Origin: a virus
Length of the DNA: 55,342 nucleotides
Virus record (IMG/VR): IMGVR_UViG_3300020220_000067
Location: 1-55,342 of that record
Direction: 5' to 3' (one strand)
Shown piece after piece: positions 976 to 55,130 of the stretch (its first letter is position 1; each line of letters starts with the position of its first letter). A model generated the notes under the pieces. It saw nothing but the letters and a program-made list of their open reading frames with translations. It was not told the DNA's origin and made no database searches. The position numbers were made by a program, and so were the translations under genes.

Positions 976-1551
976 ATGAAAAGTATTATTAGAAAAATTC
1001 TTATAGAGGGCTCAAAATTAAATATATTAAAAAAATACTTAATAAAAACTTGGAATGATCAAGTTAAATCAGGTAAAATTCCAATGTTGAATATTATAGA
1101 TTTACATAGAAAAAATTTATCCAATCATATTGACGAAATAATTAAATGTTATTTTGAATTTGTTGGTGGTGAAGAAGAAGCATTTAAATTATTTAAGAAA
1201 TATATTGATGGTAAAATTATAACTGATGTAGATATAAGAAATATGGGCCTTAAGGTTTTACCTGAAGACCAATATAAAATTAAAATAACAAGAATTTACA
1301 ATTTAGATTACAGGGGTAACAGAATATTAGGAAGTAATGAAGAATTAGAATTTGGTTTTGAATTACTTAGTGGACAATTTTTAACAAGTGAAGGTATATT
1401 GACTTTGGAAGAATTATATGATGAAAAATATGAACATTTATGGTTTGACGTTAGAGATTATTTAAGAACTGAACTAGAAGATTATGTTTGGAGTGTTTCT
1501 AAAAATTTTGGTCTTGAGTTTGATGCTTATACATCTTATTCGAGAGATTAA
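976..1551 (+). CDS. Leader protein of unknown function
   Basis: 191 residues from the ATG at 976; a TTG two codons earlier is less likely. TATTTATT lies at 963-970, immediately before the start, as in most leader genes here. The N-terminus MKSIIRKILIEG is short and basic and ends in L-I-E, matching the [ILV]-x-E pattern. The body is mixed alpha/beta, acidic towards the C-terminus (EELYDEKYEHLWFDVRDYL), with no recognisable domain. A terminator at 1559-1585 follows. Confidence 0.7.
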   Translation: MKSIIRKILIEGSKLNILKKYLIKTWNDQVKSGKIPMLNIIDLHRKNLSNHIDEIIKCYFEFVGGEEEAFKLFKKYIDGKIITDVDIRNMGLKVLPEDQYKIKITRIYNLDYRGNRILGSNEELEFGFELLSGQFLTSEGILTLEELYDEKYEHLWFDVRDYLRTELEDYVWSVSKNFGLEFDAYTSYSRD

Positions 1552-1558
1552 AAAATTA

Positions 1559-1585
1559 AAAAGTTGGATTTCTCCGACTTTTTTA
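1559..1585 (+). terminator. Rho-independent terminator
   Basis: AAGTTGG and CCGACTT form a 7-base stem (one G-T pair) followed by a T run, just after the stop of the preceding gene. Confidence 0.7.
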
Positions 1586-1694
1586 TTGTGAATAGTTTAC
1601 TCGTTTATCCCTCAGGAGTTTAATTACGTTTTAAACCGCTACCTGATTTAACAGAATATACGATCAAATCAATTTTTTTTATATATTTATTATT

Positions 1695-2243
1695 ATGAAC
1701 AAATACAGATTTTATACTTTATTAGAATCCAAATTGGGTAATTCAAAACCCTTGATATTCGAAAATAAATTAAAAGATGAAAGGTATCTGAATAAAAAAC
1801 AACAACTATTGGATTATCTTTATACCATTGGTTTAGAATCAGACAAAGATACAAAGGAAGTTGATATCAACAAAGATGGTAAGATAGACACAGAGTTATT
1901 TACATTCAACAAAGGAAACGTTGTGATGTATTTGGGTATATGTAATTTCTCAAACGGGGATATACAATATCTTTGTCTGATCAAAACAAAACCAGATTAT
2001 TATATTGTATTAAAACCAACCTTTGTAGAGACATTAGAAGAAGTACAATCAAACATAGAGCCATATATAAAACAATCCTACGAAGATACAAAACTTGATT
2101 TTCTTGGTGTAGAAAATCAAACGGAATATATTCCAACTAAAGATGAATTAAATGATTTAATAAATCAGGCTTTAGACGATGAGAATTTCGAAGAAGCAAC
2201 AAGGCTTCAAAACAAGTACGGAAATTTATATAAGAGTATATGA
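1695..2243 (+). CDS. LLESK-GN-KPLI leader protein
   Basis: 182 residues. Start follows TATTTATTATT at 1684. The N-terminus MNKYRFYTLLESKLGNSKPL ends in I-F-E and is the same leader type as the genes at 4972 and 8697 (the latter an M23 peptidase). The body contains an Asp-rich loop (DINKDGKIDTE) that looks like an EF-hand or dockerin-type calcium loop, and ends in a coiled-coil-like segment (LINQALDDENFEEATRLQ) resembling a UvrB/UvrC interaction motif, although this may be coincidence. It is the last gene before the non-coding island. Confidence 0.7.
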   Translation: MNKYRFYTLLESKLGNSKPLIFENKLKDERYLNKKQQLLDYLYTIGLESDKDTKEVDINKDGKIDTELFTFNKGNVVMYLGICNFSNGDIQYLCLIKTKPDYYIVLKPTFVETLEEVQSNIEPYIKQSYEDTKLDFLGVENQTEYIPTKDELNDLINQALDDENFEEATRLQNKYGNLYKSI

Positions 2244-2273
2244 TTAAATCATTCGGTTCATAGTCCTACACTC

Positions 2274-2291
2274 GTTTCACTTCGTTCGGAA
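2274..2291. repeat. 18-base direct repeat, copy 1
   Basis: GTTTCACTTCGTTCGGAA, identical to 2702-2719. Confidence 0.8.
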
Positions 2292-2323
2292 TTCACCTCA
2301 TAATTTTATCCTATACTCTTAAC

Positions 2324-4611: not shown

Positions 4612-4668
4612 TCCTTCAATAAAGAAATTTTTTTATTTACAGTATATTTATTACTAAAGAATACTATT

Positions 4669-4944
4669 ATGAAAAGAATTATAAGATTAACCGAATCGAA
4701 CCTTATTAGTATTGTAAGAAAAGTTATTAATGAAACTAATAGAATTGATGAAACATCACTTATTAATAGACTTCAATATCGTAAAGAAATAAAACAAGCA
4801 AACGAGTTAGGTGGATGTTCTTGTGTTGTTAAAACAATTGTGAGTGGAATTGTTGTAAAACCATGTTCAGAACTTACACGAACTGAAGAAGATAATATTA
4901 TCTATTACACAAAAGATTGCGATACATGGGATGGAATGTATTAG
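4669..4944 (+). CDS. LTESDL-type leader protein, Cys-rich
   Basis: 91 residues. The leader MKRIIRLTESNLISIVRKV is followed by I-N-E and Thr, the expected cleavage-like junction. The mature part would be about 70 residues with four Cys (CSC, PCSE and DCDTW contexts), so disulfides or a metal site are possible. TATTTATTA at 4645-4653. No known domain recognised. Confidence 0.75.
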   Translation: MKRIIRLTESNLISIVRKVINETNRIDETSLINRLQYRKEIKQANELGGCSCVVKTIVSGIVVKPCSELTRTEEDNIIYYTKDCDTWDGMY

Positions 4945-4971
4945 ATAAGATATTTATAATAAAAAAATATT

Positions 4972-5409
4972 ATGGACAAATATAGATTTAAACAATTACT
5001 GTAATCAACAATGGGAAATGTTAAACCGTTGATTATGGAAAACCCTACTGGTAGTACTCAAACAATCAGTAAGATGTTACAAGGAAAAAAATTTCGTGGT
5101 TTAACCAAAAGTGTAACAGGATTTGGTGATGTTTATTACGAACTTTGGGGACAGTCTAAAGGAAGATTATTTTATGTTAAATTTATTTTACTCCCCGATG
5201 GATTGGTTGAGACAACAGTTGGATCAGAGGACCCGACGTACTTTGACATGGTTGAGGCCGTGTATAATTCTTTAGACGGTTTTGAGAAAATTGGGTTTGA
5301 TAAAAGTGACACCGAAGCGGTAAAAGGTAAAATAAAGACAAAGTTTGACAAAGAACAGGTTGCTCAACTATTTCACGCATTGGAGAAATCATATAATAAA
5401 GTGTCCTAA
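4972..5409 (+). pseudogene. LLESK-type leader protein with in-frame TAA in the leader
   Basis: TATTTATAA at 4951-4959 points to the ATG at 4972. The frame reads MDKYRFKQLL, TAA (5002-5004), ST, then MGNVKPLIMEN and on to 5409. Aligned with the intact leaders at 1695 and 8697 (QLLESKVGNVKPLISE), the TAA sits exactly where Glu (GAA) is expected, so a single G-to-T change explains it. The body (about 130 residues) is intact and could still be translated from the ATG at 5011, but without most of its leader. The C-terminal half has an amphipathic helix (KEQVAQLFHALEKSY). Confidence 0.7.
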
Positions 5410-5613: not shown

Positions 5614-5641
5614 CATATTATAGATTAGTATATTTATTAAT

Positions 5642-6031
5642 ATGAAAAGAACAATAGAACTTACAGAATCTCAATTAACCAAGTTGATTCAAAACATTAT
5701 TAAAGAAAATTTATACGATAATGATTTATACTCACAGATCATGAGTACTCTAAGTAACTCGACATCTTCCAACGAAGAGAAAATTGATATGCTTAGAATT
5801 ATCATAGATGAAATGGAATCAGCAAATCAAATAAGACAAAATATGAGATCACGTTCTAGACGTAGAATGGATGAGACAAAAGATAATAACAAAGAATCCG
5901 ATCTTATTCAAATTTATAATTTATACAAGGAGGGAAAAATCAGTAAAAAACATTTCTACGACTTTTTAGAAATTACTGATAGAAAAGAACAAGATGAATT
6001 AAGGCGGTACATTGAAAATAAAAAGAACTAA
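5642..6031 (+). CDS. LTESDL-type leader protein, helical
   Basis: 129 residues. Leader MKRTIELTESQLTKLIQNI, then I-K-E and Asn. TATTTATTA at 5631-5639. The body is strongly helical and charged, with an Arg-rich patch in the middle (MRSRSRRRMDE) and a final pair of helices (YNLYKEGKISKKHFYDFLE). The Arg patch could bind nucleic acid. No family recognised. Terminator follows at 6043-6070. Confidence 0.75.
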   Translation: MKRTIELTESQLTKLIQNIIKENLYDNDLYSQIMSTLSNSTSSNEEKIDMLRIIIDEMESANQIRQNMRSRSRRRMDETKDNNKESDLIQIYNLYKEGKISKKHFYDFLEITDRKEQDELRRYIENKKN

Positions 6032-6070: not shown

Positions 6071-6127
6071 ATTTAGAATGATTTTTTTTATTTTTCAATA
6101 TATTTATTTAAAAAATAAAAAAAAATT

Positions 6128-6532
6128 ATGAAAAAAATTATAAGATTAACAGAAAACGATTTGGCTCGTATTGTTAGACGAGTTTTATCAGAAGCAGTTT
6201 CAGGATCTGGAACTTATGAAGACCCTTATTTGATGAAAGTTTTTCAATCAGAAATAGACAAAGAAGATAACACAAGAAGTCATAATATTAATGTTTATGA
6301 TCTCAGTGTAAAGGACGAAGACGTAGAATTCTTTTATTTTTTTGCAGGTAAAAACAAACTTGAAAGTGGATCGTTTCACTGTGACAGAAATTATGTCACG
6401 TTATTTAGTCAACAATATTTCTTGACTGATGAAGCGTCAGCTATATTTCAGAAAAAATGTGATGCTTACGCATCTACTGGATCTAAACAATCAAACATGA
6501 CCGAATCAAGAAGATACAAAAGAAGATTTTAA
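6128..6532 (+). CDS. LTESDL-type leader protein, beta-rich
   Basis: 134 residues. Leader MKKIIRLTENDLARIVRRV, then L-S-E and Ala. The first 57 bases and the A-rich stretch upstream are almost identical to those of the gene at 8208, while the bodies are unrelated. TATTTATT at 6101-6108. After the leader comes a Gly-Thr-Tyr-Glu-Asp-Pro-Tyr segment, then predicted strands with two Cys, and a basic tail (SRRYKRRF). Terminator at 6555-6583. Confidence 0.75.
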   Translation: MKKIIRLTENDLARIVRRVLSEAVSGSGTYEDPYLMKVFQSEIDKEDNTRSHNINVYDLSVKDEDVEFFYFFAGKNKLESGSFHCDRNYVTLFSQQYFLTDEASAIFQKKCDAYASTGSKQSNMTESRRYKRRF

Positions 6533-7374: not shown

Positions 7375-7707
7375 GTGAAAATTATTATTTCTGAAAATCA
7401 AAAATATGTTATTAGACGCATACAACAATTTATAGAAATTGTTGAAGATCAGATTGAAGGGTATGAACTAAACACAGACGATCCTTGGTGGTGTAGATCT
7501 TATGATCCAGATACTTTTTTGGAAAATGTCAGAGGTAGATCAATTGAAATATTTGTTGATAAAAATTGGGATTTTTTTAATGATAACACAACTAATGGAG
7601 GATCCAAAATAGATCTATCTCTTTTATATCAAATTTTTCACTCAGAATATGGAAATGAAATCAGAAATCTTTTTGTCCGTAAATGTAATCATCAACGTTA
7701 TTGGTAA
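7375..7707 (+). CDS. KIIISESQ-family small protein
   Basis: 110 residues with a GTG start at 7375, chosen because TATTTATT lies at 7351-7358 and the N-terminus MKIIISENQKYVIRR matches the family. Relatives in this window are at 9504, 9832, 13396, 13730, 22485 and (minus) 31366. Features shared with 9504: an early amphipathic helix, a central acidic region, and a C-terminal pattern Tyr-Gly-Asn-Glu-Ile followed by a final Cys (EYGNEIRNLFVRKC). Function unknown. Confidence 0.7.
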   Translation: MKIIISENQKYVIRRIQQFIEIVEDQIEGYELNTDDPWWCRSYDPDTFLENVRGRSIEIFVDKNWDFFNDNTTNGGSKIDLSLLYQIFHSEYGNEIRNLFVRKCNHQRYW

Positions 7708-8207: not shown

Positions 8208-8615
8208 ATGAAAAAAATTATAAGATTAACCGAAAACGATTTGGCTCGTATCGTTAGACGAGTTATAAGAGAAAATGAAGAAAATAAATTTATTGGTGAA
8301 ACAATAAATCTTTACAGAAACAAAAAAGAAATGCAAACAGATTTTGCATATAAAGTAAAAATTGCAAGTGTCAACGTTAATGGAAATGATATTACAGTAG
8401 ATTTAGAGGGTGGCAGTAAATTAACTTTGAAATGTACAGATTCGACAGGAGCACTTTCGTTCGGTTCTCAAATGATGTATAATCAAGATTTGTACAGAGA
8501 TCTTAAAGAAACCTATTGTATGCGAAAAAGAGAGAGAGATCGCAAAAAAGAGTTTAAAACTGTACCTAAAGCAACTTATGCCTATACTGGAGGTCAAATG
8601 GGTAATATGGGTTAA
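8208..8615 (+). CDS. LTESDL-type leader protein
   Basis: 135 residues. Leader MKKIIRLTENDLARIVRRV, then I-R-E and Asn, and ENEEN as in the gene at 15496. The leader DNA differs from that at 6128 at only two of 57 bases. TATTTATTA at 8180-8188. The body has a short beta-rich domain (NVNGNDITVDLEGGSKLTL) and a basic, Gly-rich tail (Tyr-Thr-Gly-Gly-Gln-Met-Gly). Function unknown. Confidence 0.75.
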   Translation: MKKIIRLTENDLARIVRRVIRENEENKFIGETINLYRNKKEMQTDFAYKVKIASVNVNGNDITVDLEGGSKLTLKCTDSTGALSFGSQMMYNQDLYRDLKETYCMRKRERDRKKEFKTVPKATYAYTGGQMGNMG

Positions 8616-8696: not shown

Positions 8697-9437
8697 ATGG
8701 ATAAAAAAAGATTTAATCAATTACTTGAATCTAAAGTTGGAAATGTCAAACCACTTATTAGTGAATCTTTACCCCCACTAAGTAATTTTCCTATTCAAGG
8801 AGGAAGATACAATATTGGTTATGATGATGATTGGGATAATTTTAGTAATCCCATGGGAACTGCAAATAGCGACTTCTCAACTAAACCAACTTATGCTGGT
8901 TCAGGAGGTCATTTAAAGGGACATATTGGAATTGATATTTTTGGACAAAGGGGTACACCAATACTAGCCCCTGTTAATGGAAGAGTAAAATATGCTGGTA
9001 ATGGACTAACGGTAATAATAGAGGATCCTGAAACAGGTTATTCTCATTGGTTAGGGCACTTAGATTCAAGAACTGTAGACGAAGGTGTCTTTGTTTTTGC
9101 AGGACAACAAGTAGGAACCTTGGGTGATTCTGGAAACGCTAAAGGTACTGCACCTCATTTACATTATAATATATACAAAACTAATCAAGGTTTTTATTCA
9201 GGAGAAGATCCTTTGGATATCCTTAAATCTGCAATAAACAAAACTGCAAAAAAACCAGAGGAGGTCGAATATAAAGATCTTGGTCCAAATTTTAAAAAAT
9301 CATTTTTGAAATTGTTTGACGATGAAGAAAAAACGGAAGAAGGAAATGTGAAAGCTGATGATGAAGTAGACCTATGGGACAAGATGAAAACCGCAGGAAA
9401 AGTATTTTTTAACAAACTCAAAGATATATTTGATTAA
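8697..9437 (+). CDS. M23-family peptidoglycan peptidase with leader
   Basis: 246 residues. Leader MDKKRFNQLLESKVGNVKPL then I-S-E and Ser. Residues about 68-175 are an M23 (LytM/lysostaphin-type) zinc endopeptidase: H76-x3-D80 (GHIGIDIFG), a His in GYSHWLGHL (about 117-121) and HLH at 154-156, the zinc ligands and catalytic His of this family, which cuts peptide cross-links in peptidoglycan. An acidic and Lys-rich tail follows. With a leader but no signal peptide, it fits a virion-carried wall enzyme used on entry better than a classical endolysin, though either is possible. TATTTATTA at 8677-8685; terminator behind. Confidence 0.85.
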   Translation: MDKKRFNQLLESKVGNVKPLISESLPPLSNFPIQGGRYNIGYDDDWDNFSNPMGTANSDFSTKPTYAGSGGHLKGHIGIDIFGQRGTPILAPVNGRVKYAGNGLTVIIEDPETGYSHWLGHLDSRTVDEGVFVFAGQQVGTLGDSGNAKGTAPHLHYNIYKTNQGFYSGEDPLDILKSAINKTAKKPEEVEYKDLGPNFKKSFLKLFDDEEKTEEGNVKADDEVDLWDKMKTAGKVFFNKLKDIFD

Positions 9438-9503: not shown

Positions 9504-9830
9504 ATGAAAATTATTGTTTCTGAAAGACAATATAACCATGCTTTCTTAAGAAGAAGATTTTACGAAATATTGAATGAAGCGTTACTCATGATTGCAGATG
9601 ACGGTGCTTTTTATGGTGACATTGACTTTTGTTGGGAATATCCCACGTTTTATAGTTTTATGGAAGATATGGTTGCTGAAATAACGCGTCATTATGACTT
9701 TAATTATGGACACGACATAGCTGAATTTATCTATGGTGATATTGGAGTTAAAAACTTTATTAAACTGTTACTTGATGAACACGGTAATGAAATTAAGGAA
9801 TTCTATGATCTAAAAACAAAAGATTGTTAA
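9504..9830 (+). CDS. KIIISESQ-family small protein
   Basis: 108 residues. MKIIVSERQYNHAFLRRRFY at the N-terminus, TATTTATTA at 9493-9501 only two bases before the ATG. Acidic and aromatic, ending EHGNEIKEFYDLKTKDC, parallel to EYGNEIRNLFVRKC in the gene at 7375. The next family member begins one base after its stop, so the two are co-transcribed. Function unknown. Confidence 0.7.
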   Translation: MKIIVSERQYNHAFLRRRFYEILNEALLMIADDGAFYGDIDFCWEYPTFYSFMEDMVAEITRHYDFNYGHDIAEFIYGDIGVKNFIKLLLDEHGNEIKEFYDLKTKDC

Positions 9831-9831
9831 C

Positions 9832-10107
9832 ATGAAAATTATTATTTCTGAAAGTCAATTTGATAATGTTTTGAAAAAATACGAAAGAGTTTTAAATAAT
9901 TTAAAATTTTATGGTGTTAAGAAAATAACATTGGACTATAGAGATCCAGAAGCTATTGAGGTGAATATTTTTTATGATATAAAATTAGCAATAGAACTCG
10001 GACAAGATTTCAATACAGTTCAGTGGAAAACGAATAGAAACATTTTCAATGTTGTAGAAAAAATAAATTTAGGACCAAAGTATTTGTACTATCTACACTA
10101 TGAGTAA
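9832..10107 (+). CDS. KIIISESQ-family small protein
   Basis: 91 residues, MKIIISESQFDNVLKKYERV. One base separates it from the preceding gene. After the leader it differs from 9504: basic helix, then strands (KKITLDYRDPEAIEVNIFYD). The family name therefore describes the N-terminus, not a common body. Confidence 0.65.
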   Translation: MKIIISESQFDNVLKKYERVLNNLKFYGVKKITLDYRDPEAIEVNIFYDIKLAIELGQDFNTVQWKTNRNIFNVVEKINLGPKYLYYLHYE

Positions 10108-10136: not shown

Positions 10137-11345
10137 ATGAGCCAAGGATTTATAAAAAATAATATAGTTCGAAGAGTTATTGATCAAATAACATCAAATA
10201 GAATATTATTTGAAGACAAACTTTCTGATTTACAAAAACAATATGATGACGATTACTTCGATACGATAGATTACATTTATAACCAAGACCCATCAAAATC
10301 AAAAAAATATTTCAAATGGATTTTCGAAACTTGGTTGAAAAATTTGGGAAAAATTGATTACGAAGATTTAATTACTATGGTGTCATATTTTGATAAAAAT
10401 CCTCATAAGTTTGAAAAAAAAGATCTATATCAATATGATTATGATGAGTTTTTAAAAAAGTATAATGAAGCTATTTTGAAATTATCAAAAAGAGAAATAG
10501 TTTCTTCTGGTGTTGAAAAATTATATGAAGATGATAGGTATGTCTTAGTTAGACCAAAAACAAGTGAGGCGTCTTGTAAATACGGTGCAAATACGAAATG
10601 GTGTATTTCATCAAGAACAAATAATTATTTTAACAATTATAGTTCTGAAAACTTGTTTTTTTTTATAATTGATAAAATACAAGAGCCAATTCCAAATAAA
10701 AAAAAATCGCCTAATTATTTCAAAGTTGTTATTCAATACCATCCTGATCAACCGTTTTTTAATGTAAATGATATTTCACCTGAGTATAAAAATTATTATC
10801 TCTCAAAAGCATTAACAGGTAAATTCACTTCTTGGAACGCTATTGACAATGAAATTGAATTGAAAACTGTCAAAAAATATATCCCACAAGATTTGTTAAA
10901 AAAATTTTTAGAATTAATTAAAAATTATACCTACAATTTATACACAAATTATTACGAAAAACAACTTTCTTATTTTCAGTCATTTAATTTTGAAGAATAT
11001 CAAAACCTTAAATCGGAAGTAAACCTACTATATGGTACAGTAAGACGTAAAACTCGAAAATACTCTCAAGACAAACATGTTAAATTTGTTAATGATGTTC
11101 AAGACGCTTATGATACCTTTGTTATTATTTTAAATCGGTGGAATCTTCCTACCAGAAGTTTAGAAGAATTTTTGGAATTTAAAGGGATTAAAGAAAAATT
11201 TATGGAAGATCTTAAAATAGAAAAAAAACTAAAAAATGATTTGAATCATTCTCAACAATTATTTGAAACCAAAGATAAACAATTAGAAGATATGGAAACT
11301 AAATTAGAATTTATAAAAAAAGAAATTAATTTTAAAAATATTTAA
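10137..11345 (+). CDS. Large protein with YG-x2-TKWC signature
   Basis: 402 residues. TATTTATA at 10125-10132. The N-terminus (IVRRVIDQITSNRILFED) resembles the helix part of the LTESDL leader and contains L-F-E. Around residues 143-160 it has SEASCKYGANTKWCISS, with Cys147 and Cys156; I recall a similar Tyr-Gly-x2-Thr-Lys/Arg-Trp-Cys signature in phage proteins of unknown function, but cannot name a family. The C-terminal third is a long charged coiled coil (KNDLNHSQQLFETKDKQLED). No signal peptide or membrane helix. Confidence 0.7.
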   Translation: MSQGFIKNNIVRRVIDQITSNRILFEDKLSDLQKQYDDDYFDTIDYIYNQDPSKSKKYFKWIFETWLKNLGKIDYEDLITMVSYFDKNPHKFEKKDLYQYDYDEFLKKYNEAILKLSKREIVSSGVEKLYEDDRYVLVRPKTSEASCKYGANTKWCISSRTNNYFNNYSSENLFFFIIDKIQEPIPNKKKSPNYFKVVIQYHPDQPFFNVNDISPEYKNYYLSKALTGKFTSWNAIDNEIELKTVKKYIPQDLLKKFLELIKNYTYNLYTNYYEKQLSYFQSFNFEEYQNLKSEVNLLYGTVRRKTRKYSQDKHVKFVNDVQDAYDTFVIILNRWNLPTRSLEEFLEFKGIKEKFMEDLKIEKKLKNDLNHSQQLFETKDKQLEDMETKLEFIKKEINFKNI

Positions 11346-11474: not shown

Positions 11475-12101
11475 ATGAAAAAAATAGTGAGATTAACTGA
11501 ATCAGATTTAACTAACTTAGTTAGAAGAATTATTTCAGAAAAAAAAGGTAAAAAATCCAAAGAAAATGATGAAGATGACGTTATGTCTATTTTAGATCAA
11601 TGTATAGAAGATATAGATAAGGAAGATTTTGATGACGCTGAAGAGTGGGTTGAAGAAGTTTTTAGTGTTTGTATGGATGAAATGGGTGAAGACATGTCTG
11701 AAGAAGAATTAGAAGAGTTTAAAGATGAATATTACGATTATGTAATGGGTTGTTGGGATGATTATTCTGACGACGATGATTATTCTGACGATGACGACGA
11801 TGATTATTCTGACGATGATGATGATTATTCTGACGATGATGATGATTATTCTGACGATGATGATGATTATTCTGACGATGATGATGATTATTCTGACGAT
11901 GATGATGATTATTCTGACGATGACGACGATGATGAAGATTTTTCTGATGACGAAGATGATGAAGATTTTTCTGATGACGAAGATGATGAAGATTTTTCTG
12001 ATGACGACGATGATGAAGATTTTTCTGATGACGACGATGATGAAGATTTTGGAACTATGAGAGGTCGTTTTTTTGATAAAGACGACGACGACGAATTTTA
12101 A
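11475..12101 (+). CDS. LTESDL-type leader protein with long Asp/Ser repeats
   Basis: 208 residues. Leader MKKIVRLTESDLTNLVRRI, then I-S-E and Lys. A helical acidic domain (about residues 25-95) is followed by a repeat tract: eight Tyr-Ser units spaced by runs of 4-6 Asp, then four Glu-Asp-Phe-Ser units spaced by Asp/Glu, then a short tail with FGTMRGRFF. Such a highly acidic tract could mimic DNA, bind divalent cations, or compete with DNA inside the head. TATTTATAA at 11457-11465. The repeat makes replication slippage and length variation likely. Confidence 0.8.
   Translation: MKKIVRLTESDLTNLVRRIISEKKGKKSKENDEDDVMSILDQCIEDIDKEDFDDAEEWVEEVFSVCMDEMGEDMSEEELEEFKDEYYDYVMGCWDDYSDDDDYSDDDDDDYSDDDDDYSDDDDDYSDDDDDYSDDDDDYSDDDDDYSDDDDDDEDFSDDEDDEDFSDDEDDEDFSDDDDDEDFSDDDDDEDFGTMRGRFFDKDDDDEF
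11761..12050 (+). repeat. In-gene tandem repeats (21- and 27-base units)
   Basis: First block: 21-base unit (GATTATTCTGACGATGATGAT) less one base shown as GATTATTCTGACGATGATGA, repeated with small changes. Second block: 27-base unit coding Glu-Asp-Phe-Ser-Asp-Asp-x-Asp-Asp, four copies. Translated in frame in the gene above. Confidence 0.85.
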
Positions 12102-13395: not shown

Positions 13396-13728
13396 ATGAA
13401 AATTATTATTAATGAGTCACAATTCCATTTGATCAGAAGGGTTAATATGATAGAAGACCTTTTTAAAAAATATGTTGACGACGATGAATTTATTTATAGA
13501 GTTTTGGATACTGGACCTGGAGCTTTTGGTACCAATAAAGTACATTTGGATGAGTTTATACCAACAATATCATATACAATTGCACAATTGATCGCAAAAA
13601 ATGACATGGAGCCAAGGGATGATGAAGACAACGATAACTTTGTAACATTTAGGAATCAGTTACAAAGGTTTATTCAGACAAATTATTATGATTATTTGAA
13701 AAAAAGATACAAGGAAACTTTAAATTGA
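13396..13728 (+). CDS. KIIISESQ-family small protein
   Basis: 110 residues, MKIIINESQFHLIRRVNMIE. It follows the lipoprotein after four bases and is followed one base later by another member (13730), so all three are probably co-transcribed. Acidic middle (EPRDDEDNDN), C-terminal helix YYDYLKKRYKETLN. Function unknown. Confidence 0.7.
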   Translation: MKIIINESQFHLIRRVNMIEDLFKKYVDDDEFIYRVLDTGPGAFGTNKVHLDEFIPTISYTIAQLIAKNDMEPRDDEDNDNFVTFRNQLQRFIQTNYYDYLKKRYKETLN

Positions 13729-13729: not shown

Positions 13730-14128
13730 ATGAATTATTTAATAACAGAATCTCAATTTAGTCAAACAATAATTAAATTTTGTGAAATGTCATTTCGCGA
13801 AATTCAAGAATCTTGTGACGAACCTTTAGAGGATATACCAAGTTACTTAAATTTAGAATCTTGTTTTGTTTGCGGATTAGTAGAAAAATTGGAATTTTCG
13901 AATGTATTGAAAACTGACTCGACATCATTTCGATCATATCCACCAAAAAAAAGTAGTTTGTTTTTAATTGATTGTAAAATATATTATTGGTCTTTGAATT
14001 ATCATGGTGAAGAATTTTTTGAAAGTATGATCTACGACATTCGACAAAGTATCAAAAGAAGATTCAGATTAGATGTCTCAATAAACGTAATTGATACAGT
14101 TAATAAGAACTCAGACCCTCAGTGGTAA
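13730..14128 (+). CDS. KIIISESQ-like small protein
   Basis: 132 residues, MNYLITESQFSQTIIKFCEM: I-T-E-S-Q replaces I-S-E-S-Q. It has Cys residues at several positions and ends in a strand and helix segment. The start overlaps the region of the previous stop by spacing of one base. Function unknown. Confidence 0.65.
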   Translation: MNYLITESQFSQTIIKFCEMSFREIQESCDEPLEDIPSYLNLESCFVCGLVEKLEFSNVLKTDSTSFRSYPPKKSSLFLIDCKIYYWSLNYHGEEFFESMIYDIRQSIKRRFRLDVSINVIDTVNKNSDPQW

Positions 14129-14593: not shown

Positions 14594-14623
14594 ATTTAGA
14601 ATATATTTATATAAAAAAAAATT

Positions 14624-15271
14624 ATGACAAAAATTATAAGATTAACAGAATCAGACCTTTACAGAATTGTCAAAAAAACTATCATGGAGGTTAAAGAGAA
14701 AGAAAAAGAAAAAGAAAAGACACAAAAAGAAGAACCAAAAAAATCTGGACCAAAAAACATTATAATTGGAGATTCTCAATGTGCTTGGATTGCTAAAAAA
14801 AGTTCTAAATTCAACCTCATGTCTGAAAAGGGTAGTATGGGATCGTTATGGTCGCCAGGAAAAGGTTTGTCTTGGTTAAAAAATGCGGTTGAATCTCATA
14901 GAGGATCTTCTGTGATAAAAAATATTGCAATCTCAATTGGTACCAATGGAGGATTTAACAAAAATGATGATGTCAAAGGTTTAGTTTCATTATTGAGAGA
15001 AAAATTTCCAAATGCAAAATTGTTTGTTGTTCAAGGCTCATGGGGATGGGGATCTAATAAAAATATTACAGAGAAAGAAGTTGAAAATTACTACTCAATG
15101 TTTTCCTCACAACGTGTGAAAGTAATCAATCCTCCAATAGGTAAAAATGAACCTCATCAAAATTTACCTAGTTATTCATCAATTGGAAAAAATTTAGATA
15201 ATCAACCATTAAACGAAAATTACAGGTCAATATATGAATCTAATTTCATTTCTAAAAAAAAAGCGAAATAA
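14624..15271 (+). CDS. SGNH/GDSL hydrolase with LTESDL leader
   Basis: 215 residues. Leader MTKIIRLTESDLYRIVKKT then I-M-E, and a Lys/Glu linker (22-45). The rest matches the SGNH hydrolase fold: block I IIIGDSQ with nucleophile Ser51, block III IGTNGG with Asn108, and His178 in NEPHQN as the likely catalytic base. Members remove acyl or acetyl groups from lipids or glycans. A virion-carried esterase could deacetylate surface polysaccharide during entry or act after injection. Block V lacks the usual Asp two or three residues before His (Glu-Pro-His here). TATTTATA at 14604-14611. Confidence 0.75.
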   Translation: MTKIIRLTESDLYRIVKKTIMEVKEKEKEKEKTQKEEPKKSGPKNIIIGDSQCAWIAKKSSKFNLMSEKGSMGSLWSPGKGLSWLKNAVESHRGSSVIKNIAISIGTNGGFNKNDDVKGLVSLLREKFPNAKLFVVQGSWGWGSNKNITEKEVENYYSMFSSQRVKVINPPIGKNEPHQNLPSYSSIGKNLDNQPLNENYRSIYESNFISKKKAK

Positions 15272-15495: not shown

Positions 15496-16110
15496 ATGAA
15501 AAGAATCATAAGATTAACAGAATCTGATTTAACTCGTCTTGTAAGACGGATTGTAAAAGAAAATGAAGAAAATTGGATTAGTCAATCGGAAGATTTAGGA
15601 TCAGAATCCGATTTTACGTCTATGAACCTCAAACAAGACAAAAGATTTAGAAGATTAGTGTCTTTTTTCAAGAATCATCCTGAAATTGCAATGGATATTA
15701 AAAAATCTTTAGAAAGAAGTGTAAACGAAAATTACAAATACTACGATTATAGTGGAGCTCCAAAAAAAGAAATAACAAAAAAACACTTTTTAAAAAGAAA
15801 ACTTGCAACATATGGACTTGCAACAATTGTAAGTGCTATAGTTGGATCCACAATAGGTGTCATGGCTGGCGAAGAAGTACTTGAAGCGGCACTTGTTGCT
15901 GCTGGTATGGGAGGTCCATTATTTGGGGCTTTATCATCTGAAGTAGGTAGAGAAAAAGTGACAGATGAACCCCCTGTAGACAATGATGAAACTGAAGATA
16001 TAGAAGAACCACTGAGTGAACGATGGTCACAAAAATACAAAAAATCAATTGATTGTAATAATCCAAAAGGTTTCTCCCAAAGAGCTCATTGTCAAGGAAG
16101 AAAAAAATAA
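15496..16110 (+). CDS. LTESDL-type leader protein with Gly-rich membrane segment
   Basis: 204 residues. Leader MKRIIRLTESDLTRLVRRI, then V-K-E and Asn. Residues about 100-145 form a hydrophobic, small-residue-rich hairpin (TYGLATIVSAIVGSTIGVMA then LVAAGMGGPLFGAL), which could insert in a membrane, as in ejection or pore proteins. It ends IDCNNPKGFSQRAHCQGRKK; I recall this type of tail (Cys-x-Asn-Pro-Lys-Gly-Phe-Ser-Gln, Ala-His-Cys) in marine phage proteins. TATTTATAA at 15478-15486; terminator follows. Confidence 0.75.
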   Translation: MKRIIRLTESDLTRLVRRIVKENEENWISQSEDLGSESDFTSMNLKQDKRFRRLVSFFKNHPEIAMDIKKSLERSVNENYKYYDYSGAPKKEITKKHFLKRKLATYGLATIVSAIVGSTIGVMAGEEVLEAALVAAGMGGPLFGALSSEVGREKVTDEPPVDNDETEDIEEPLSERWSQKYKKSIDCNNPKGFSQRAHCQGRKK

Positions 16111-17481: not shown

Positions 17482-18099
17482 ATGAGTAAATTTTTAATTA
17501 GTGAATCAGAAAAATCAAGAATATTGAACATGCATAAAAATGCCACTAAACGTCAATATTTGTCCGAACAAAGCTGGAAGTGGAAACAAGGTGATCCTAC
17601 TCCTGAAAAATTAGACCCAAATACAATCAACACAACTGTAACTTTAGAATATACTGCGTTAACCACACCGGTAAAAGAGAATGACAAAACATTTAATTTT
17701 GATGGATCGAAATTAAATGTAGATATAAAAGGAATTCCTAATTTATCCGCAGGAACTTTTGTTTATGAGTTTACACTAGCGGGTAGAGGGATGAAACAAT
17801 TTGGTCCGATTACAAACGCTACTGTTAATGGTGATGTATTGTCATTCAGTATTCCTCTTAAGAGAGGAGATCTTTCTTTGGATTACATAAATAACGAGCT
17901 TATTTTAGATTCTAAAAATAAAAGGCAAGTTAATTATGTTTTATCAGTAGGCGTACTCCCAAGCTACTACGATACAAAACAACTTAGACAGACAAGTGGT
18001 ATGGCTAATGTAGTCGCAAATCAAGTACAAGGATCAAACCCAACACCACAAGTCGCTCAACAACCTCAAAGTGTAGCAACCCCAACAACAAAATCTTAA
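17482..18099 (+). CDS. ISESEKSRIL-type leader protein
   Basis: 205 residues. N-terminus MSKFLISESEKSRILNMHKN, then QYLSEQ: a second leader type, helix plus L-S-E junction near residue 30. The body (about 45-175) is beta-rich and could be an immunoglobulin-like or carbohydrate-binding fold; the tail is low complexity Gln/Thr/Pro (PTPQVAQQPQSVATPT). TATTTATAA at 17455-17463. Terminator follows; the next gene (18189) has a related leader. Confidence 0.7.
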   Translation: MSKFLISESEKSRILNMHKNATKRQYLSEQSWKWKQGDPTPEKLDPNTINTTVTLEYTALTTPVKENDKTFNFDGSKLNVDIKGIPNLSAGTFVYEFTLAGRGMKQFGPITNATVNGDVLSFSIPLKRGDLSLDYINNELILDSKNKRQVNYVLSVGVLPSYYDTKQLRQTSGMANVVANQVQGSNPTPQVAQQPQSVATPTTKS

Positions 18100-38371: not shown

Positions 38372-40468
38372 ATGAAATATTTTTTAAATGAAGAAATAAA
38401 AAGAAGTTTGGTTCTTATGGGTTTACCTGAAAGAATTTCACATAGATTATCTGAAGCCATTTCTGCTGCAGCCTCAACCAATCCAATCTTGGAATTTATG
38501 GCGATTTTGAAAACGGCAATGAAAAAAGGGGACGTAGAAGTTTTAACTGCGGAAGAGAGAAGGGCAATCGCGGCATTTGCTGATGAACTACAGGGTCAAA
38601 AAGTCATAGATGATTTTGGTGATGTGGGAGAAAGATTGACAAAAGATCAGTTGACAATACTTAAAAATTATTTTAGTGGGACAAGTATTGGTAAAGGTGT
38701 GGACATTGCTTATGCTTCTATGATATACCATAATACAAGTGCATCTATAAGATACTTAGAGGTTGAAGAAGAAATATTCGAATCATTAGAAAGACAATTA
38801 GCAGAAGTAAGTGATAACTCTACTGAAGAATTAAAAACAGTAAGAGATTTATTTGATGCCGCAAAAGACAATGAACTTAGTCCTGCGGTAAGGGCGGAAC
38901 TTGCAGAAAAAGCTAAAGTAGTTGCTGCTAAATTGGAAGAAGACAATATCTACAAAAAATTGATACTTGACACTGCAGATAATGAGGCGGCAAAGGCCGA
39001 ACGACAAGCCAAAAATGGTAATGTGTACTTGGTCACTGATGATGAGATTGCAAAAGTCACTGACGAAGGAATACAACAATTAAAAGATGCTGCTGATACA
39101 GGCCTTTCTAAAATGGAAGACGAGTTTGGGGACATTGTTTTTAGAGGAACCGAAGATTTAGAAGAAGAAATTGGTGAAGAAGAAGCTGTTAGTTTAGAGG
39201 AGGCGGCACAAAAAGCATTCATGGAAAGAATGAATCAAACTTGTAAGTCAAAATTTTGCGGAACTATGTATGCTTACTGGAAAGGGAAGTCGCCAAAATT
39301 TGACTCGATGTGGGACATCATGGTTAAAGAACTAGAAAAAATGATGAGAACCTCAACAGGGCAAAGTTTGAGTAGAATACCAAAAGAAACTGAAGATACA
39401 TATAATATTATATTAAAAAAATTCAAAGAAGGTAATACACCTTTAACATTGGATCAGTACATGACTTTAGGTCAAAAAGTTTATGATAAATGGTCCAAAG
39501 GTGGTATTTGGGAAAGATTTAGTTTGTCAGGTTTATTTGGTACAGGAAGACAAAGTATGGTCACTTTGGGAAGATTTAGTTTGGGTTCGGATTTGTATAC
39601 AGGTAAATGGACATTAAAAAGCTCCATCAAAAGATGGGCACCTTTCAACGCTTTATGGTTGTTATGGTCAATTGGGGTTGGTGTTTATGAATTGAAAGTT
39701 GGAAGTGACGACCCAAATAAAACGACTGAAGATATTTTAAGAGAAGCGGTTGTAGATTGGGTAAAAAATTCCGTTGCAACGGGTTTTGGTTTAGCTTTTG
39801 CACCAAGATTAGCAATGGAGGGTTTAATAGAGGGATTCCAATTTCTTTTACCTCCAAGTACATACGTAAATAAAGAAGATTTGATTGAGTATCTAAAAAA
39901 GAACTCATTATCTTCCCAAGGAACCGCTTGGACAATTTTAGAGATAAATGATAATATTTTTAATAAGAAAGGTGTTAAAGTTTATTTTGGGCCAGATGAC
40001 GAACCACCAATAACGCAAATCACTGGAATTAAAGACCCGGCATATTCTATGGCAAATGGTAGATATTATTTTGAAAAAACGGGAGATTTTTCTTATAAAT
40101 TAGTTTTTATACCTGAAGGTCAGAAAAAACCAAAAGTAGAGGAGGAAAAAACAGATGAGTTGGATAAAAAATCGATTGAAACTATTGAGAATCAAATTGC
40201 AACAAATTCGGTTTTATCTCAATTTATAAAAGACCGTTTGACAGGTATAATTAAAAGTCATAAAAAACATATTGATTTCAAATCACAGAAAAAAATGTCA
40301 CAAGATGACGGTAGTCAAATCATTGCACTAATTTTTGAATGGAAAGACAAGGACACTGATCAAAGTTATAAATTCGCCTTTAATTACACAAAATTTAAAT
40401 CAATGAATAATCCCGATTTGAAAAACCAAGAAAATTGGGCTCAACTAGTAAGAGAATATAAAGAATAA
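38372..40468 (+). CDS. Large leader protein, helical with membrane segments
   Basis: 698 residues from ATG 38372, chosen over the in-frame ATG at 38342 because TATTTATTA (38352-38360) lies between them. N-terminus MKYFLNEEIKRSLVLMGLPE, ending R-L-S-E before Ala near residue 28. The first half is Ala/Glu-rich helix, probably elongated coiled coil. Residues about 420-500 include hydrophobic stretches (ALWLLWSIGVGVYEL; ATGFGLAFAPRLAMEG). It has an internal promoter motif, so it can be made independently of the upstream genes. Stop and next start overlap (TAATG). Confidence 0.7.
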   Translation: MKYFLNEEIKRSLVLMGLPERISHRLSEAISAAASTNPILEFMAILKTAMKKGDVEVLTAEERRAIAAFADELQGQKVIDDFGDVGERLTKDQLTILKNYFSGTSIGKGVDIAYASMIYHNTSASIRYLEVEEEIFESLERQLAEVSDNSTEELKTVRDLFDAAKDNELSPAVRAELAEKAKVVAAKLEEDNIYKKLILDTADNEAAKAERQAKNGNVYLVTDDEIAKVTDEGIQQLKDAADTGLSKMEDEFGDIVFRGTEDLEEEIGEEEAVSLEEAAQKAFMERMNQTCKSKFCGTMYAYWKGKSPKFDSMWDIMVKELEKMMRTSTGQSLSRIPKETEDTYNIILKKFKEGNTPLTLDQYMTLGQKVYDKWSKGGIWERFSLSGLFGTGRQSMVTLGRFSLGSDLYTGKWTLKSSIKRWAPFNALWLLWSIGVGVYELKVGSDDPNKTTEDILREAVVDWVKNSVATGFGLAFAPRLAMEGLIEGFQFLLPPSTYVNKEDLIEYLKKNSLSSQGTAWTILEINDNIFNKKGVKVYFGPDDEPPITQITGIKDPAYSMANGRYYFEKTGDFSYKLVFIPEGQKKPKVEEEKTDELDKKSIETIENQIATNSVLSQFIKDRLTGIIKSHKKHIDFKSQKKMSQDDGSQIIALIFEWKDKDTDQSYKFAFNYTKFKSMNNPDLKNQENWAQLVREYKE

Positions 40469-41913
40469 TGAAATTTAAAAATATTTTAATTTTAGAAGAT
40501 CTAGGTTGCGACGATTCAAAATGTGATGGTGGATTCACAACTTGTGCGGGACAAACAAGTAAATGTGAAAAATTAAAAAACGATCCAGATTTTATTGTTT
40601 GTGTCAATCGAGGAACACAAGTTGCTGAAAAATTTTGTAAAAAAAAGGTTAATGTTATAACTCCACCAACACCGAGTCCTGGTAAAAAATGTTCACAACC
40701 AGAAGATTGTCCTGCTGATGTAGTAAATTTTTTAACTTGGTATTGGAAAGATAAAAAATGGGTAGACGCAAGTGGAAATCCTGACTCATTAAAACATCCA
40801 GACCAGATTAACGGGGTCAATCTCAAAGCTGATGGGTGTGTATCATCTACATTTTCAAGAAATTTTGAGGATGCCAAAAAAAGGTACACTACAACACATA
40901 AATGTGTTGCAGGACCAACAAAAACTGAAGGACTGAAAAGAGCATATTCTGAAAATAAGGAAAAATATCTCAAAACAGTAAGTCCTACAATTATTGATGA
41001 TCCCGATGCTTCGGCAAAAGAAGAATGTACGAAAAAAGGAGGTACTTTTGATCCTAAAACAAAAGAATGTAAAATGCCAATAAATCCTGGTGTGCAAAAT
41101 TTTAGGATCGAGTTTGACACTAAATTTGGAGGTTTAGTTGACAAATTCAAACTAGATCCTGAACAATGGGATCGGATGTATGACACAATGCCAGAAACAT
41201 ATCCACCAACAAGTTTTTCAGTTTTGAGTGCGATAACCAAAAACATAGTTTCTTATATTGAAGATTTTTATGCGTCATCAGAATTTGGAATTTTCAAACA
41301 AGTTTTAGACACTTTTGTCGAATTATATAGTAATAAGGTAGATGAAAAAGGAACAGTGACCGACGATAAAAGTAAAATCTTGGACCCATCTTTTTTCAAA
41401 AGATTCGGAGGTACTGTAGATGAGGTTAAACAGTTATCAACTAGTATAGAAACTGTAAATAATGTAAAAATTACAAAATTAAACTACAATTCTTTGATGG
41501 ATCCTGAAGCATCATACCAAAACATGTTTTCACAAAAAATTGTGACTGTGTTAGCATCTCCTGAAAGCTACTTCACTAAACCATTAAAAATGTATGCGTG
41601 GAAAAAAAACAGTTTTGGGGCTCTTCCGAAAATTGACCTTACTCCAATCGATAATGTTTTGAAAAGTGAAATAACCGAAAAAAATTGTGAAACACTTTTG
41701 GACACATTTGGGTATTATAAATCAAATCCACTAATACCTCGACAAAAAATTGAGGAAATGGTTACTATGGGTCAAACGTGTCTATGTAAAAATAAATTTA
41801 TGGAGATAGGAAAACTAACGGGTAAAGATAAATTTAGTAGAGAAAAAAAAGAATTGGCAAAAAAAAGATTAGGGATTTTAAATAACATGGGGGTTTCTAA
41901 ACTGAATTGTTAA
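40468..41913 (+). CDS. Cys-rich 481-residue protein
   Basis: MKFKNILILEDLGCDDSKCD at the start, with I-L-E-D as a possible short leader. Over 15 Cys, mostly in the first 200 residues (CDGGFTTCAGQTSKCEKL, SQPEDCPADVV, GCVSSTF, KCVAGPT), so either disulfide-bonded outside the cell or metal-binding. A Trp-rich segment (FLTWYWKDKKWVDASGNPDS) recalls small wall- or sugar-binding modules, without firm match. The C-terminal half is helical. Last gene of the operon; a terminator follows. Confidence 0.65.
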   Translation: MKFKNILILEDLGCDDSKCDGGFTTCAGQTSKCEKLKNDPDFIVCVNRGTQVAEKFCKKKVNVITPPTPSPGKKCSQPEDCPADVVNFLTWYWKDKKWVDASGNPDSLKHPDQINGVNLKADGCVSSTFSRNFEDAKKRYTTTHKCVAGPTKTEGLKRAYSENKEKYLKTVSPTIIDDPDASAKEECTKKGGTFDPKTKECKMPINPGVQNFRIEFDTKFGGLVDKFKLDPEQWDRMYDTMPETYPPTSFSVLSAITKNIVSYIEDFYASSEFGIFKQVLDTFVELYSNKVDEKGTVTDDKSKILDPSFFKRFGGTVDEVKQLSTSIETVNNVKITKLNYNSLMDPEASYQNMFSQKIVTVLASPESYFTKPLKMYAWKKNSFGALPKIDLTPIDNVLKSEITEKNCETLLDTFGYYKSNPLIPRQKIEEMVTMGQTCLCKNKFMEIGKLTGKDKFSREKKELAKKRLGILNNMGVSKLNC

Positions 41914-52958: not shown

Positions 52959-52969
52959 ATTTTTTTTTG

Positions 52970-52977
52970 TATCTTTG
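52970..52977 (+). promoter_or_regulatory. Host-type promoter -7 box
   Basis: TATCTTTG four bases before the ATG at 52982; a good TTTG at the -33 distance is not seen, CTTG at 52949-52952 is nearest. Confidence 0.55.
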
Positions 52978-52981
52978 TAGT

Positions 52982-53479
52982 ATGAAAAACGAATTACCAT
53001 ACGAAAAAACAGGAAACGCGATTAAGGGATATACTGAATCTTCAATTGCCAGAAGTGAAACAAATGATTGTGTTGTTAGGGCTTTCGCATCATCTTTTGA
53101 AGTTTCATACGATTACGCTCACAGGTATGTTGCCGATGAATTTGGAAGAAAACCAAGAAAAGGAACTTATGGGACTATAAAAACTCTTGTTAAGATGTCC
53201 GACAGTTTAATAAAAGTGAATGGTAAGAAAATCTGTCCTCTTGGGGTAAGACACAATGATCATTTATTAAAATCATTAATGTATGATGTTACTGTTAAAG
53301 GTGTAACTAAAAAAAGAAACATGACCGTAGGTACTTTTGTTAAACAAAACCCAAAGGGAACTTTCTTTGTACTTGTTAGACAACATGCCTTTACAATCAA
53401 AGATGGTGTTGTTATTGGGAATCCTGAAGACGCAACAAAAACAAAACGACCTATGAGATGTGCCTTTGAAATCAAATAA
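52982..53479 (+). CDS. Papain-like (C39-type) protein
   Basis: 165 residues from ATG 52982 (MKNELPYEKTGNAIKGYTES). SETNDCVVRAFASSFEVSYD provides a possible catalytic Cys30 at a helix start, and VLVRQHAFTIKDGVVIGN provides His135 followed by a strand, the order of papain-fold peptidases. I recall similar proteins (Asn-Asp-Cys-Val-Val-Arg-Ala) in marine phages. Nothing shows that it cuts peptides. Host-type promoter, no leader: likely early. Confidence 0.6.
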   Translation: MKNELPYEKTGNAIKGYTESSIARSETNDCVVRAFASSFEVSYDYAHRYVADEFGRKPRKGTYGTIKTLVKMSDSLIKVNGKKICPLGVRHNDHLLKSLMYDVTVKGVTKKRNMTVGTFVKQNPKGTFFVLVRQHAFTIKDGVVIGNPEDATKTKRPMRCAFEIK

Positions 53480-53494
53480 AAATTTATATATTTG
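53465..53494 (+). promoter_or_regulatory. Host-type promoter (TTTG, 18 bases, TATATTTG)
   Basis: TTTG at 53465-53468 inside the end of the previous gene and TATATTTG at 53487-53494, ahead of the CAP gene. Confidence 0.7.
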
Positions 53495-53523
53495 TAATTA
53501 ACATTTAATACGGAATTTACCAA

Positions 53524-54096
53524 ATGAAAACCATATTTCTTTTTTTATACTCATTAATTTTTTTCAGTTGTTTTTCACAAGTAGTGAATTATAATAATTT
53601 TGACTCAAAACTTTTTGATCAATTACTTGTTGACAAAATCAACAATTATCGGGTATCAATAGGTTTGAAATCTTTGTTTGTATCTCAAACATTGAAAAAC
53701 TATACTTCTGAAAAAACCGCAACTCAATGTGCCAAAACTGAATTTGCGAGTCATATTAAATTTAGTAATGTTAATGACAGCGTTAATAAAAAGTTATATG
53801 AAGAACTATACAATTTTACTAATGGATCGTGCGGGGTAAAAACACCATCAAATTTATTTATTAATGAAGGTATTGGTGAAATCATCTCAGTAAAAAAAAT
53901 TAACAATGTAACTTATGAACAATTGGCAACCATTACACTAAAAAGTTGGTTAGATTCTCCAGGACATAAAAAAGTAATTGAATCTCAATTTACAGATATA
54001 AGTTTAAACTTCGGTTTGATAAGTTGTTCCTCAAAGGTCTCAAAAACAAATATTGTATATACAAGTTGTAATTTTGTTGCAATATCAAATTATTAA
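53524..54096 (+). CDS. Secreted CAP/SCP-domain protein
   Basis: 190 residues. Signal peptide MKTIFLFLYSLIFFSCFSQ. The CAP domain is recognisable: KINNYRVSIGLKSLFVSQTL, FASHIKF with His77, INEGIGEI with Glu115, and TLKSWLDSPGHKKVI with His148. CAP proteins include extracellular peptidases and lipid-binding proteins; bacterial roles are mostly unknown. Related to the protein at 19802 through the YNNFDSK segment. Exported from a host-type promoter; likely envelope-acting. Shares TTAA with the convergent gene. Confidence 0.8.
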   Translation: MKTIFLFLYSLIFFSCFSQVVNYNNFDSKLFDQLLVDKINNYRVSIGLKSLFVSQTLKNYTSEKTATQCAKTEFASHIKFSNVNDSVNKKLYEELYNFTNGSCGVKTPSNLFINEGIGEIISVKKINNVTYEQLATITLKSWLDSPGHKKVIESQFTDISLNFGLISCSSKVSKTNIVYTSCNFVAISNY

Positions 54097-55130
54097 TAAG
54101 GTGCAACGTACTTAGAATATCTTTGGCCACCAGTTACAGTATTTCCTTCAGAAATTCCCATCATGTATTTTAAAACAACATCATCTTTTGAAACATTGGA
54201 TTGAGGAGGAAAATTTTTATCAATAACTTTTGTGTTGTTATATTGTTGTCTTGTGATTTTTGATATTTTTGAACCATCATTAGTCCAATAAAAATTCCAT
54301 CTTGCTAATGGCTCTGTATATGTATTCTTTAAAACATTTGGGTTCCACTTTATTTCAAAAGCCGCTAATTTATTTTTATTATTTCTAGTTGACTGTGGGC
54401 ATTGAACATCATAAAAATCAGGAGTTGCTGGTTTACCCTGTGAATTTGTACCATCACAAAAATATGTTCCAGTTGAAACCATATTTGCGGTTATTTCTGT
54501 AAAATTTTGAACGGAGTTAAGATCGTTTAGTTCGTCTTTTGACTTTAGTGAAATTTGACAATTTATAAACTGACCTGTATTGGGGTATAAAGATGTATCT
54601 CTATCTTTATCATTTTTACCTCCAGTATTTACCACAAATGATTGTGTCATCACTCTAGTTAAATTCGGATCTTTGAAAACTTTAAAAGGTTTTAGTTTTT
54701 CAAAAAGTTTAGTTTCAAAAACTTTTGCTCTATTAAGTGATAAATCCAAGTTTTTCTGATATAAAACTGTTTCGGATGGTGTGACTTTTGTGTATAAATC
54801 ATTTTCCAAATTATATCCTGTCGCTTTACCTCCCCAAGAATTACTGGCTCCTGACCCAACTCTTATAAAAGAACAATAAATACCATTGGCACTTGCTCTT
54901 AATTTTCCAGCTTCTGCATTTGCATCTATTTTAGCAACTAAATTTTTTACATAATCATCAATAAAAGTTGATGGGTCTGTACCTCCAGCAGGATATGTAC
55001 TTGTCGCTCTATAATTAATCGAGAATGATTCAGTAATTATATTCTTATGTTCGAAATTAATATCCAACTCGTTAAGATATAAATTTAAAATACGTTTTTT
55101 TTCTTCTTCGCTGATAATAAATCTTTTCAT
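54093..55130 (-). CDS. OmpA-like leader protein, minus strand
   Basis: 345 residues. N-terminus MKRFIISEEEKKRILNLYLN, then NIITE before Ser at about residue 34. Residues about 130-205 resemble an OmpA C-terminal domain (LYQKNLDLSLNRAKVFETKL, FEKLKPF, then QFINCQISLKS), more diverged than the one at 18189. The C-terminal third is beta-rich. TATTTATA at 55148-55141 on the minus strand. Confidence 0.65.
   Translation of the reverse strand: MKRFIISEEEKKRILNLYLNELDINFEHKNIITESFSINYRATSTYPAGGTDPSTFIDDYVKNLVAKIDANAEAGKLRASANGIYCSFIRVGSGASNSWGGKATGYNLENDLYTKVTPSETVLYQKNLDLSLNRAKVFETKLFEKLKPFKVFKDPNLTRVMTQSFVVNTGGKNDKDRDTSLYPNTGQFINCQISLKSKDELNDLNSVQNFTEITANMVSTGTYFCDGTNSQGKPATPDFYDVQCPQSTRNNKNKLAAFEIKWNPNVLKNTYTEPLARWNFYWTNDGSKISKITRQQYNNTKVIDKNFPPQSNVSKDDVVLKYMMGISEGNTVTGGQRYSKYVAPY

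Follow-up and report, generated by a model that had tools for sequence, protein, structure and literature searches.

Short interchangeable leaders ending in [ILV]-x-E on unrelated proteins of a large phage: a probable expansion of T4-type capsid targeting

Phage T4 offers the closest described precedent for phage proteins that reach the head by way of a removable N-terminal peptide. Its three internal proteins (IPI, IPII, and IPIII) and Alt carry targeting peptides of 10 to 19 residues (internal proteins) or 7 residues (Alt), which are removed by gp21 through cleavage after a Glu and which are conserved ahead of variable bodies (PMC9026906). That a leader suffices to load a foreign protein has been reported for T4 IPIII only, and the T4 system has already been used for loading foreign proteins into heads (PMC9026906). 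Here, a 55,342-base viral fragment from IMG/VR (record IMGVR_UViG_3300020220_000067; hereafter the window, the rest of its genome lying outside the record) was analyzed for a set of genes, called tagged genes below, whose products begin with short recurrent leaders ending in [ILV]-x-E and continue into unrelated bodies. The relatives of this virus share with T4 an S77 protease and a Gp23 capsid protein, and a similar cleavage of the leaders after Glu would be predicted. In contrast to T4, each large genome has 17 to 48 tagged genes; their leaders are mostly 15 to 34 residues long and fall into at least five classes that can replace one another, and some bodies are fused, with internal sites between them. 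On present evidence, the arrangement resembles T4-like capsid targeting, but at a far greater scale and with leaders that can be exchanged.

Other phages with many head proteins resemble this arrangement in part. In phiKZ and 201phi2-1, at least 19 head proteins each are cleaved by prohead proteases, and a family of near-identical short leaders is not reported in the available part of that account (PMC10052503), whereas G001, a 292-kb relative of the window virus, combines 48 tagged genes with a T4-line capsid. In the same source, SPN3US is described as having a large set of head proteins, many of them ejected and some trimmed by gp245 (nine substrates, 14 sites), but its propeptides are mostly 111 to 254 residues long, its motif is A-x-E, and 42 of its head proteins are uncleaved (PMC10052503). 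The bS21 Bacteroidetes phages of Chen et al. (2022) belong to the same genome size class and have the same head gene neighborhood; the accessible sections of that paper are devoted to bS21 and late transcription of structural genes, and a mention of the leaders was not found in them (PMC9723584). G001 likewise has a bS21-like gene (L165, 156088-156282, plus strand), which lies on the opposite strand within the head module and was named by reading and not by profile. The phage crAss001 is a Bacteroidota phage reported to have capsid cargo proteins, but with a Crassvirus head (PMC10172136).

An earlier note on this DNA had cited 19 junctions, all of which were found in place (17 on the plus strand and two on the minus strand); among the 17 plus-strand genes, the one at 29263 starts with TTG and the other 16 with ATG. 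Several N-terminal types recur on unrelated bodies among the 71 translated open reading frames (ORFs) of the window, and iterated profiles resolved five classes (A to E), in line with the several leader types that had been proposed. The profiles were seeded from the window, each of classes A to D starting from one of its leaders and class E from four of its sequences (18189, 23613, 38342, and 33341), so the seeds' own profile matches are not independent. For class A, a degenerate DNA pattern matched at least 120 stretches in viral contigs, from which 170 distinct class A proteins were read. In a 140-protein class A alignment from other contigs, the conserved columns were those of the leader only; a short common N-terminal leader ahead of unrelated bodies, as capsid targeting would have it, was thus found, and the earlier claim on this point held.

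Profile matches were concentrated at N-termini. The numbers of N-terminal and internal matches were 202 and 10 for class A, 46 and 1 for class B, 7 and 2 for class C, 135 and 3 for class D, and 28 and 1 for class E, the N-terminal share being about 95% or more for classes A, B, D, and E. The window itself gave 25 N-terminal and no internal matches to the five profiles, and nine of its leaders matched the 22-column class A profile with E values of 9e-14 to 3e-5. By identical counting, tagged N-termini numbered 48 in G001, 36 in G004 (296 kb), 17 in G009 (401 kb), and one in the cultured Flavobacterium phage vB_FspM_immuto_2-6A. With 25 in the window and 48 in G001, the set exceeds the few internal proteins of T4, as had been proposed. 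The same profiles found no match in viral DNA picked at random (1,011 kb), which served as the negative control; because the window gave 25 matches, the leader set is not due to chance, and the tagged set in the window is confirmed as real. The profiles replaced a test of [ILV]-x-E density by residue position, which peaked at residues 21-25 in the window, because that test was too blunt in G001. The immuto phage (L173-L176) carries two other recurrent leader types, several of them near head genes: one resembling FDLKKFLVENKLTxNSKLLxE on at least four proteins, and MKKQILSEQFxRMQxLAGIITE on two.

Cleavage of the gp21 type prefers a hydrophobic residue at P3. Class A leaders have Glu at one fixed position in 152 of 170 cases, with I, L, or V at P3 in 151, and [ILV]-x-E ends exactly 15 residues past the L of LTE in these 151. 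Among the other class A leaders, 17 of 18 contain a four-residue insert and end in hydrophobic-or-Thr-x-E four residues later. With the insert allowed, a gp21-type hydrophobic-x-Glu ending was found in 169 of 170 class A leaders and in about half of class D, where leaders elsewhere have [ILVMF]-x-E at +15 in 67 of 135 and at +16 in 12.

The junction is also marked by the exchange of leaders. Homologous bodies carry different leaders, and their homology begins one residue past the junction Glu. For example, the M23 peptidase of the window, with a class C leader (KPLISE/SLPP), is 77% identical past the Glu to the product of L025:2724-3488, with a class B leader (SHGLNE/SLPE). Another exchange separates L091 (class C, PLISE/QEET) from L120 (class B, GMINE/QEET), and a DHH-like body follows RLLNE/SGIR of class D in L158, RKLIKE/SGIR in L310, and KKILKE/TGIR in L063. 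The leaders on homologues of the product of 28049..28588 (minus strand) are of class A, of class B, or of another type, and homologues of the product of 28655..29269 (plus strand) have different short leaders, most of which end in [IVL]-x-E. Among 312 pairs with dissimilar leaders, the [ILVMF]-x-E of the partner fell at offset 0 in 88 and at +1 in 52, compared to 0 to 38 elsewhere. Furthermore, where bodies start within longer ORFs, the motif stands directly before them in 15 of 36 cases (SYGINE, GGINE, KKPLNE, and RKVNE, for example) and at other offsets in 0 to 5. A bare motif between fused bodies, without a leader, points to cleavage and would be hard to explain otherwise.

A prohead protease, which the T4-type proposal presupposes, was looked for in the relatives. 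In a survey of 20 large contigs chosen by class A leader, Peptidase_S77 was found in 16 (E values of 6e-23 or better); Gp23 and Portal_T4 occur in the same 16, so that all 16 leader-bearing records with portal and capsid genes have the protease. The four S77-negative leader genomes seemed at first to contradict this, but Gp23 and Portal_T4 are missing there too; the leader spacing of one of the four, G003, is shared by G010 and G012, both of which have the head module. The Gp23 capsid protein of the relatives (PF07068, E about 1e-64) is encoded about 3.5 kb from S77 and matches T4 gp23 in the PDB (E 8e-26), which amounts to a T4-like head with a Gp23-type capsid gene near the protease. The major capsid protein of T4, gp23, loses a 65-residue propeptide (PMC9026906). 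In the relatives, LINE/A, LINE/S, or LIYE/A stands near residue 60 of the major capsid protein, and [ILM]-x-E/[SN] stands ahead of the conserved domain of the protease (FLQE/S, VIKE/S, IIKE/N, MIRE/N, and similar); the two expected protease substrates thus share the junction motif, and by analogy with T4 both sites would be cut by the protease. The capsid N-terminus, LLESGLVGN, is possibly like LLES..GNV of class C. Among seven contigs chosen by class D, class A leaders were found in all seven (one weakly) and S77 in six. The window aligns collinearly with the part of G004 at about 120-132 kb, and an S77 prohead protease is therefore expected in its full genome.

The bodies behind the leaders are diverse. 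Pfam searches identified seven families among the 140 class A proteins and nine among 76 proteins of classes B, C, and E, including M23 peptidase, lysozyme-type, glycoside hydrolase 19, peptidoglycan-binding, PAP2, and GNAT families, and class D bodies add cell-wall hydrolases, lysozymes, and LysM. Most tagged bodies of classes A, B, C, and E matched no known Pfam family, and PDB searches with the window bodies gave no significant match. The earlier description of the bodies as peptidases, hydrolases, and wall-binding proteins stands for a minority, the OmpA-like wall-binding match of the product of 18189 being below the cut-off (0.025), and the word "arsenal" used for the set is too strong because most bodies match no known family.

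Collectively, the presence of S77 in the relatives, the junction motif in their capsid protein and protease, the leader swaps, the fused bodies, and an upstream element common to head genes (described below) support the T4-type interpretation put forward in the earlier note. The leaders would be capsid-targeting sequences of a greatly expanded T4-type system, with a probability of about 0.82. Late in infection, the prohead core would bind a tagged protein through its N-terminal strand and amphipathic helix, the phage S77 protease would cut after the Glu of [ILV]-x-E and remove the leader, and the freed body would remain in the head alongside the DNA. One step further, the bodies would most likely be ejected into the next host, where some would act on the cell wall and others elsewhere. 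The interchangeable leader classes (A to E, and others in the cultured relative) would all serve one head-loading step, and bodies could therefore be recombined behind them; two bodies may also be fused with an internal cleavage site between them. A bolder form of this proposal, about as likely as not, is a modular head-loading code in which several leader classes read by the core bring in dozens of exchangeable bodies per virion, including internally cleaved fusions. It would be the largest pre-made effector set known for a phage, delivered before phage gene expression. Most genes in large phages have no known function, and a readable tag for travel in the head would group hundreds of orphan proteins as probable first-minute effectors against Bacteroidota. 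Several leader classes would also make the T4-type head-loading tool available for phages that infect an abundant bacterial phylum.

Several points weigh against this interpretation. Virion proteomics for these phages, the immuto phage included, was not found in the literature searched, and no Peptidase_S77 match lies within the window, itself a fragment without the head module. The co-occurrence of S77 and leaders is to be weighed modestly because S77 is common in large phages (6 of 12 large control contigs chosen by an arbitrary 14-mer, class A leaders being found in 1 of the 12) and because the leader genomes are related. The 312 swap pairs and the 36 internal body starts are not counts of independent events, and in some of the pairs both members belong to class D. 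Within class D, only about half of the junctions are regular, and some of the bodies have PHROGs matches to HNH or homing endonucleases, which are not obvious head cargo. It is conceivable, if doubtful, that class D (MKIIITESQ...) does not belong with the other classes and is something distinct, such as the N-terminal part of a family linked to mobile nucleases; these endonuclease matches would fit, as would a Glu at +15 or +16 in only 79 of 135. However, the contigs chosen by class D also carry class A leaders and S77, and homologous bodies are found with a class D leader in some cases and a class A leader in others, the boundary lying at the Glu.

The cargo may also be read differently, with leaders that are capsid-targeting and cleaved and with most bodies serving not as ejected effectors but as head-core or structural parts, which would give the capsid its shape or go along with the DNA. 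The T4 head core includes the cleaved proteins gp22, gp67, and gp68, and head assembly is influenced by IPIII (PMC9026906); most bodies here are without any match, and some long tagged proteins are conserved across genomes. This reading is unlikely, however, as the bodies differ greatly from one related phage to another, and M23 peptidase, lysozymes, cell-wall hydrolases, PAP2, GNAT, and alpha/beta hydrolases are among their families. The invariant terminal Glu, the homology boundary after it, and the motif between fused bodies would all be needless in an uncleaved tag, and it is quite improbable that the leader is a docking or localization signal for a non-head target such as the membrane, the phage replication compartment, or the ribosome, even though a conserved strand and helix could dock anywhere and cleavage is here inferred from sequence. 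Within a class, leaders are clearly homologous, as they would be if the N-termini were left over from the duplication of a domain family whose bodies then diverged; such shared ancestry is hardly credible as the whole explanation, since divergence from one ancestor is contradicted by 77%-identical bodies that carry unrelated leader classes.

The upstream element cited in favor of capsid targeting, ATATTTAT, is found about 12 to 30 bases upstream of many leader-gene starts; in the window and in G001 it stands ahead of many genes, at a distance of about 12 or 20-30 bases from the start codon. It precedes 15 of 22 leader genes in the window compared to 9 of 51 others (Fisher p = 7e-5), and the contrast is weaker in G001 (13 of 46 leader genes and 39 of 296 others, p = 0.014). 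Within 40 bases of G001 genes it occurs at 52 of 342, and no permutation of its letters reaches that number (median 4). Among the G001 genes with ATATTTAT upstream are S77, tail-type genes, the bS21-like gene, and a neighbor of the capsid gene; for the scaffold gene, the element lies at -42. It was not found at the G001 capsid and portal genes, nor before any of the 28 genes of the G001 glycosyltransferase block. ATATTTAT may function as a late promoter or as a signal for translation; in its TATTTATA form, it is the reverse complement of TATAAATA, the T4 late promoter core.

The individual genes of the window are given here with junction, E value of the class profile, and position of ATATTTAT where present, and lie on the plus strand unless stated. 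The nine class A leaders belong to 4669..4944 (VINE/T; 2.2e-11, also by motif; 4644-4651), 5642..6031 (IIKE/N; 2.5e-8; 5630-5637), 6128..6532 (VLSE/A; 1e-13; 6100-6107), 8208..8615 (VIRE/N; 1.1e-13; 8179-8186), 11475..12101 (IISE/K; 9e-14; 11456-11463), 14624..15271 (TIME/V; 1.7e-11; 14603-14610), 15496..16110 (IVKE/N; 1.8e-13; 15477-15484), 22098..22418 (IIKE/E; 1.4e-7; 22059-22066), and, on the minus strand, 28049..28588 (AINE/N; 2.8e-5; minus-strand element at 28603-28610). The body encoded by 11475..12101 consists mostly of Asp-rich YS(D)n repeats and is extremely acidic, and that of 14624..15271 has a GDSQ-type motif and matched no Pfam family above the cut-off.

Class B is represented by its seed, 17482..18099 (YLSE/Q; 5.5e-17; 17454-17461), and by 54093..55130 on the minus strand (IITE/S; 7.4e-9; minus-strand element at 55142-55149). 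Class C leaders occur in 1695..2243 (KPLIFE/N; 8.6e-10, also by motif; 1683-1690) and in 8697..9437 (LISE/S), which encodes the M23 peptidase body (Pfam M23, 2.7e-20). A class C remnant, recognized by profile and sequence, precedes 5011..5409 and reads MDKYRFKQLL-stop-STMGNVKPLIME/N; across 4950-5409, the leader is broken by an in-frame TAA, the body frame is open, and the upstream ATATTTAT (4950-4957) is retained.

Class D N-termini were found in 7375..7707 (3.8e-4; 7350-7357), 9504..9830 (6.5e-5), 9832..10107 (2.4e-6), 13396..13728 (2.5e-6), 13730..14128 (8.6e-5), and 22485..22856 (3e-5), those at 7375, 9832, and 13396 being without a clear junction, and a class D leader that is also the class seed in 30746..31366 on the minus strand (IIVE/S; 4.8e-4; minus-strand element at 31375-31382). 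A class D-like leader, identified by sequence and motif, heads 20886..21611 (NLFE/Q; 20874-20881), whose body has a GFSLGG hydrolase-like motif and a weak match to an alpha/beta hydrolase in the PDB (E 0.11). Class E leaders are carried by 195..371 (MNLQENIQRIREMMGIDE; 5.5e-7), a small ORF near the window edge, and by three genes that are also seeds, namely 18189..19748 (TLTE/N; 1.2e-5; 18166-18173), with a weak OmpA-like stretch, 23613..24140 (VVSE/Q; 1e-9), and 38372..40468 (RLSE/A; 0.0016; 38351-38358); the class E-like leader of 33341..35731 (TLDE/Q) is a class E seed and so not independent.

Leader-like starts were also seen in 976..1551 (a short amphipathic MKSIIRKILIE/G, read directly and without profile support), in 20464..20814 (LLSE/Q; sequence and motif; 20443-20450), in 28655..29269 (a short helix with VIRE/S; homologue comparison; 28630-28637), in 29263..30744 (ELINE/A with a TTG start), and, from sequence only, in 10137..11345 (a helix with RILFE/D) and 40468..41913 (a short NILILE/D). 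The earlier list had not included the tagged genes at 1695, 5011, and 195 or the seven of class D (7375, 9504, 9832, 13396, 13730, 22485, and 30746), nor the short-helix leader-like starts at 28655, 10137, and 40468.

With window protein 38342, a tblastn search of INPHARED gave no match and a related-locus search gave no relative; tblastn of a 22-residue leader against INPHARED also gave no match, the query being so short that this result is uninformative, and the leader string was not found in the literature searched. At 24706-27180 on the plus strand, the window encodes an 824-residue, secreted-looking protein whose C-terminal region resembles a gliding-motility/type IX secretion system (T9SS)-type sorting domain, named by reading and not by profile search. 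Its G001 homologue is 64% identical, and this protein suggests that the host of the window virus belongs to the Bacteroidota.

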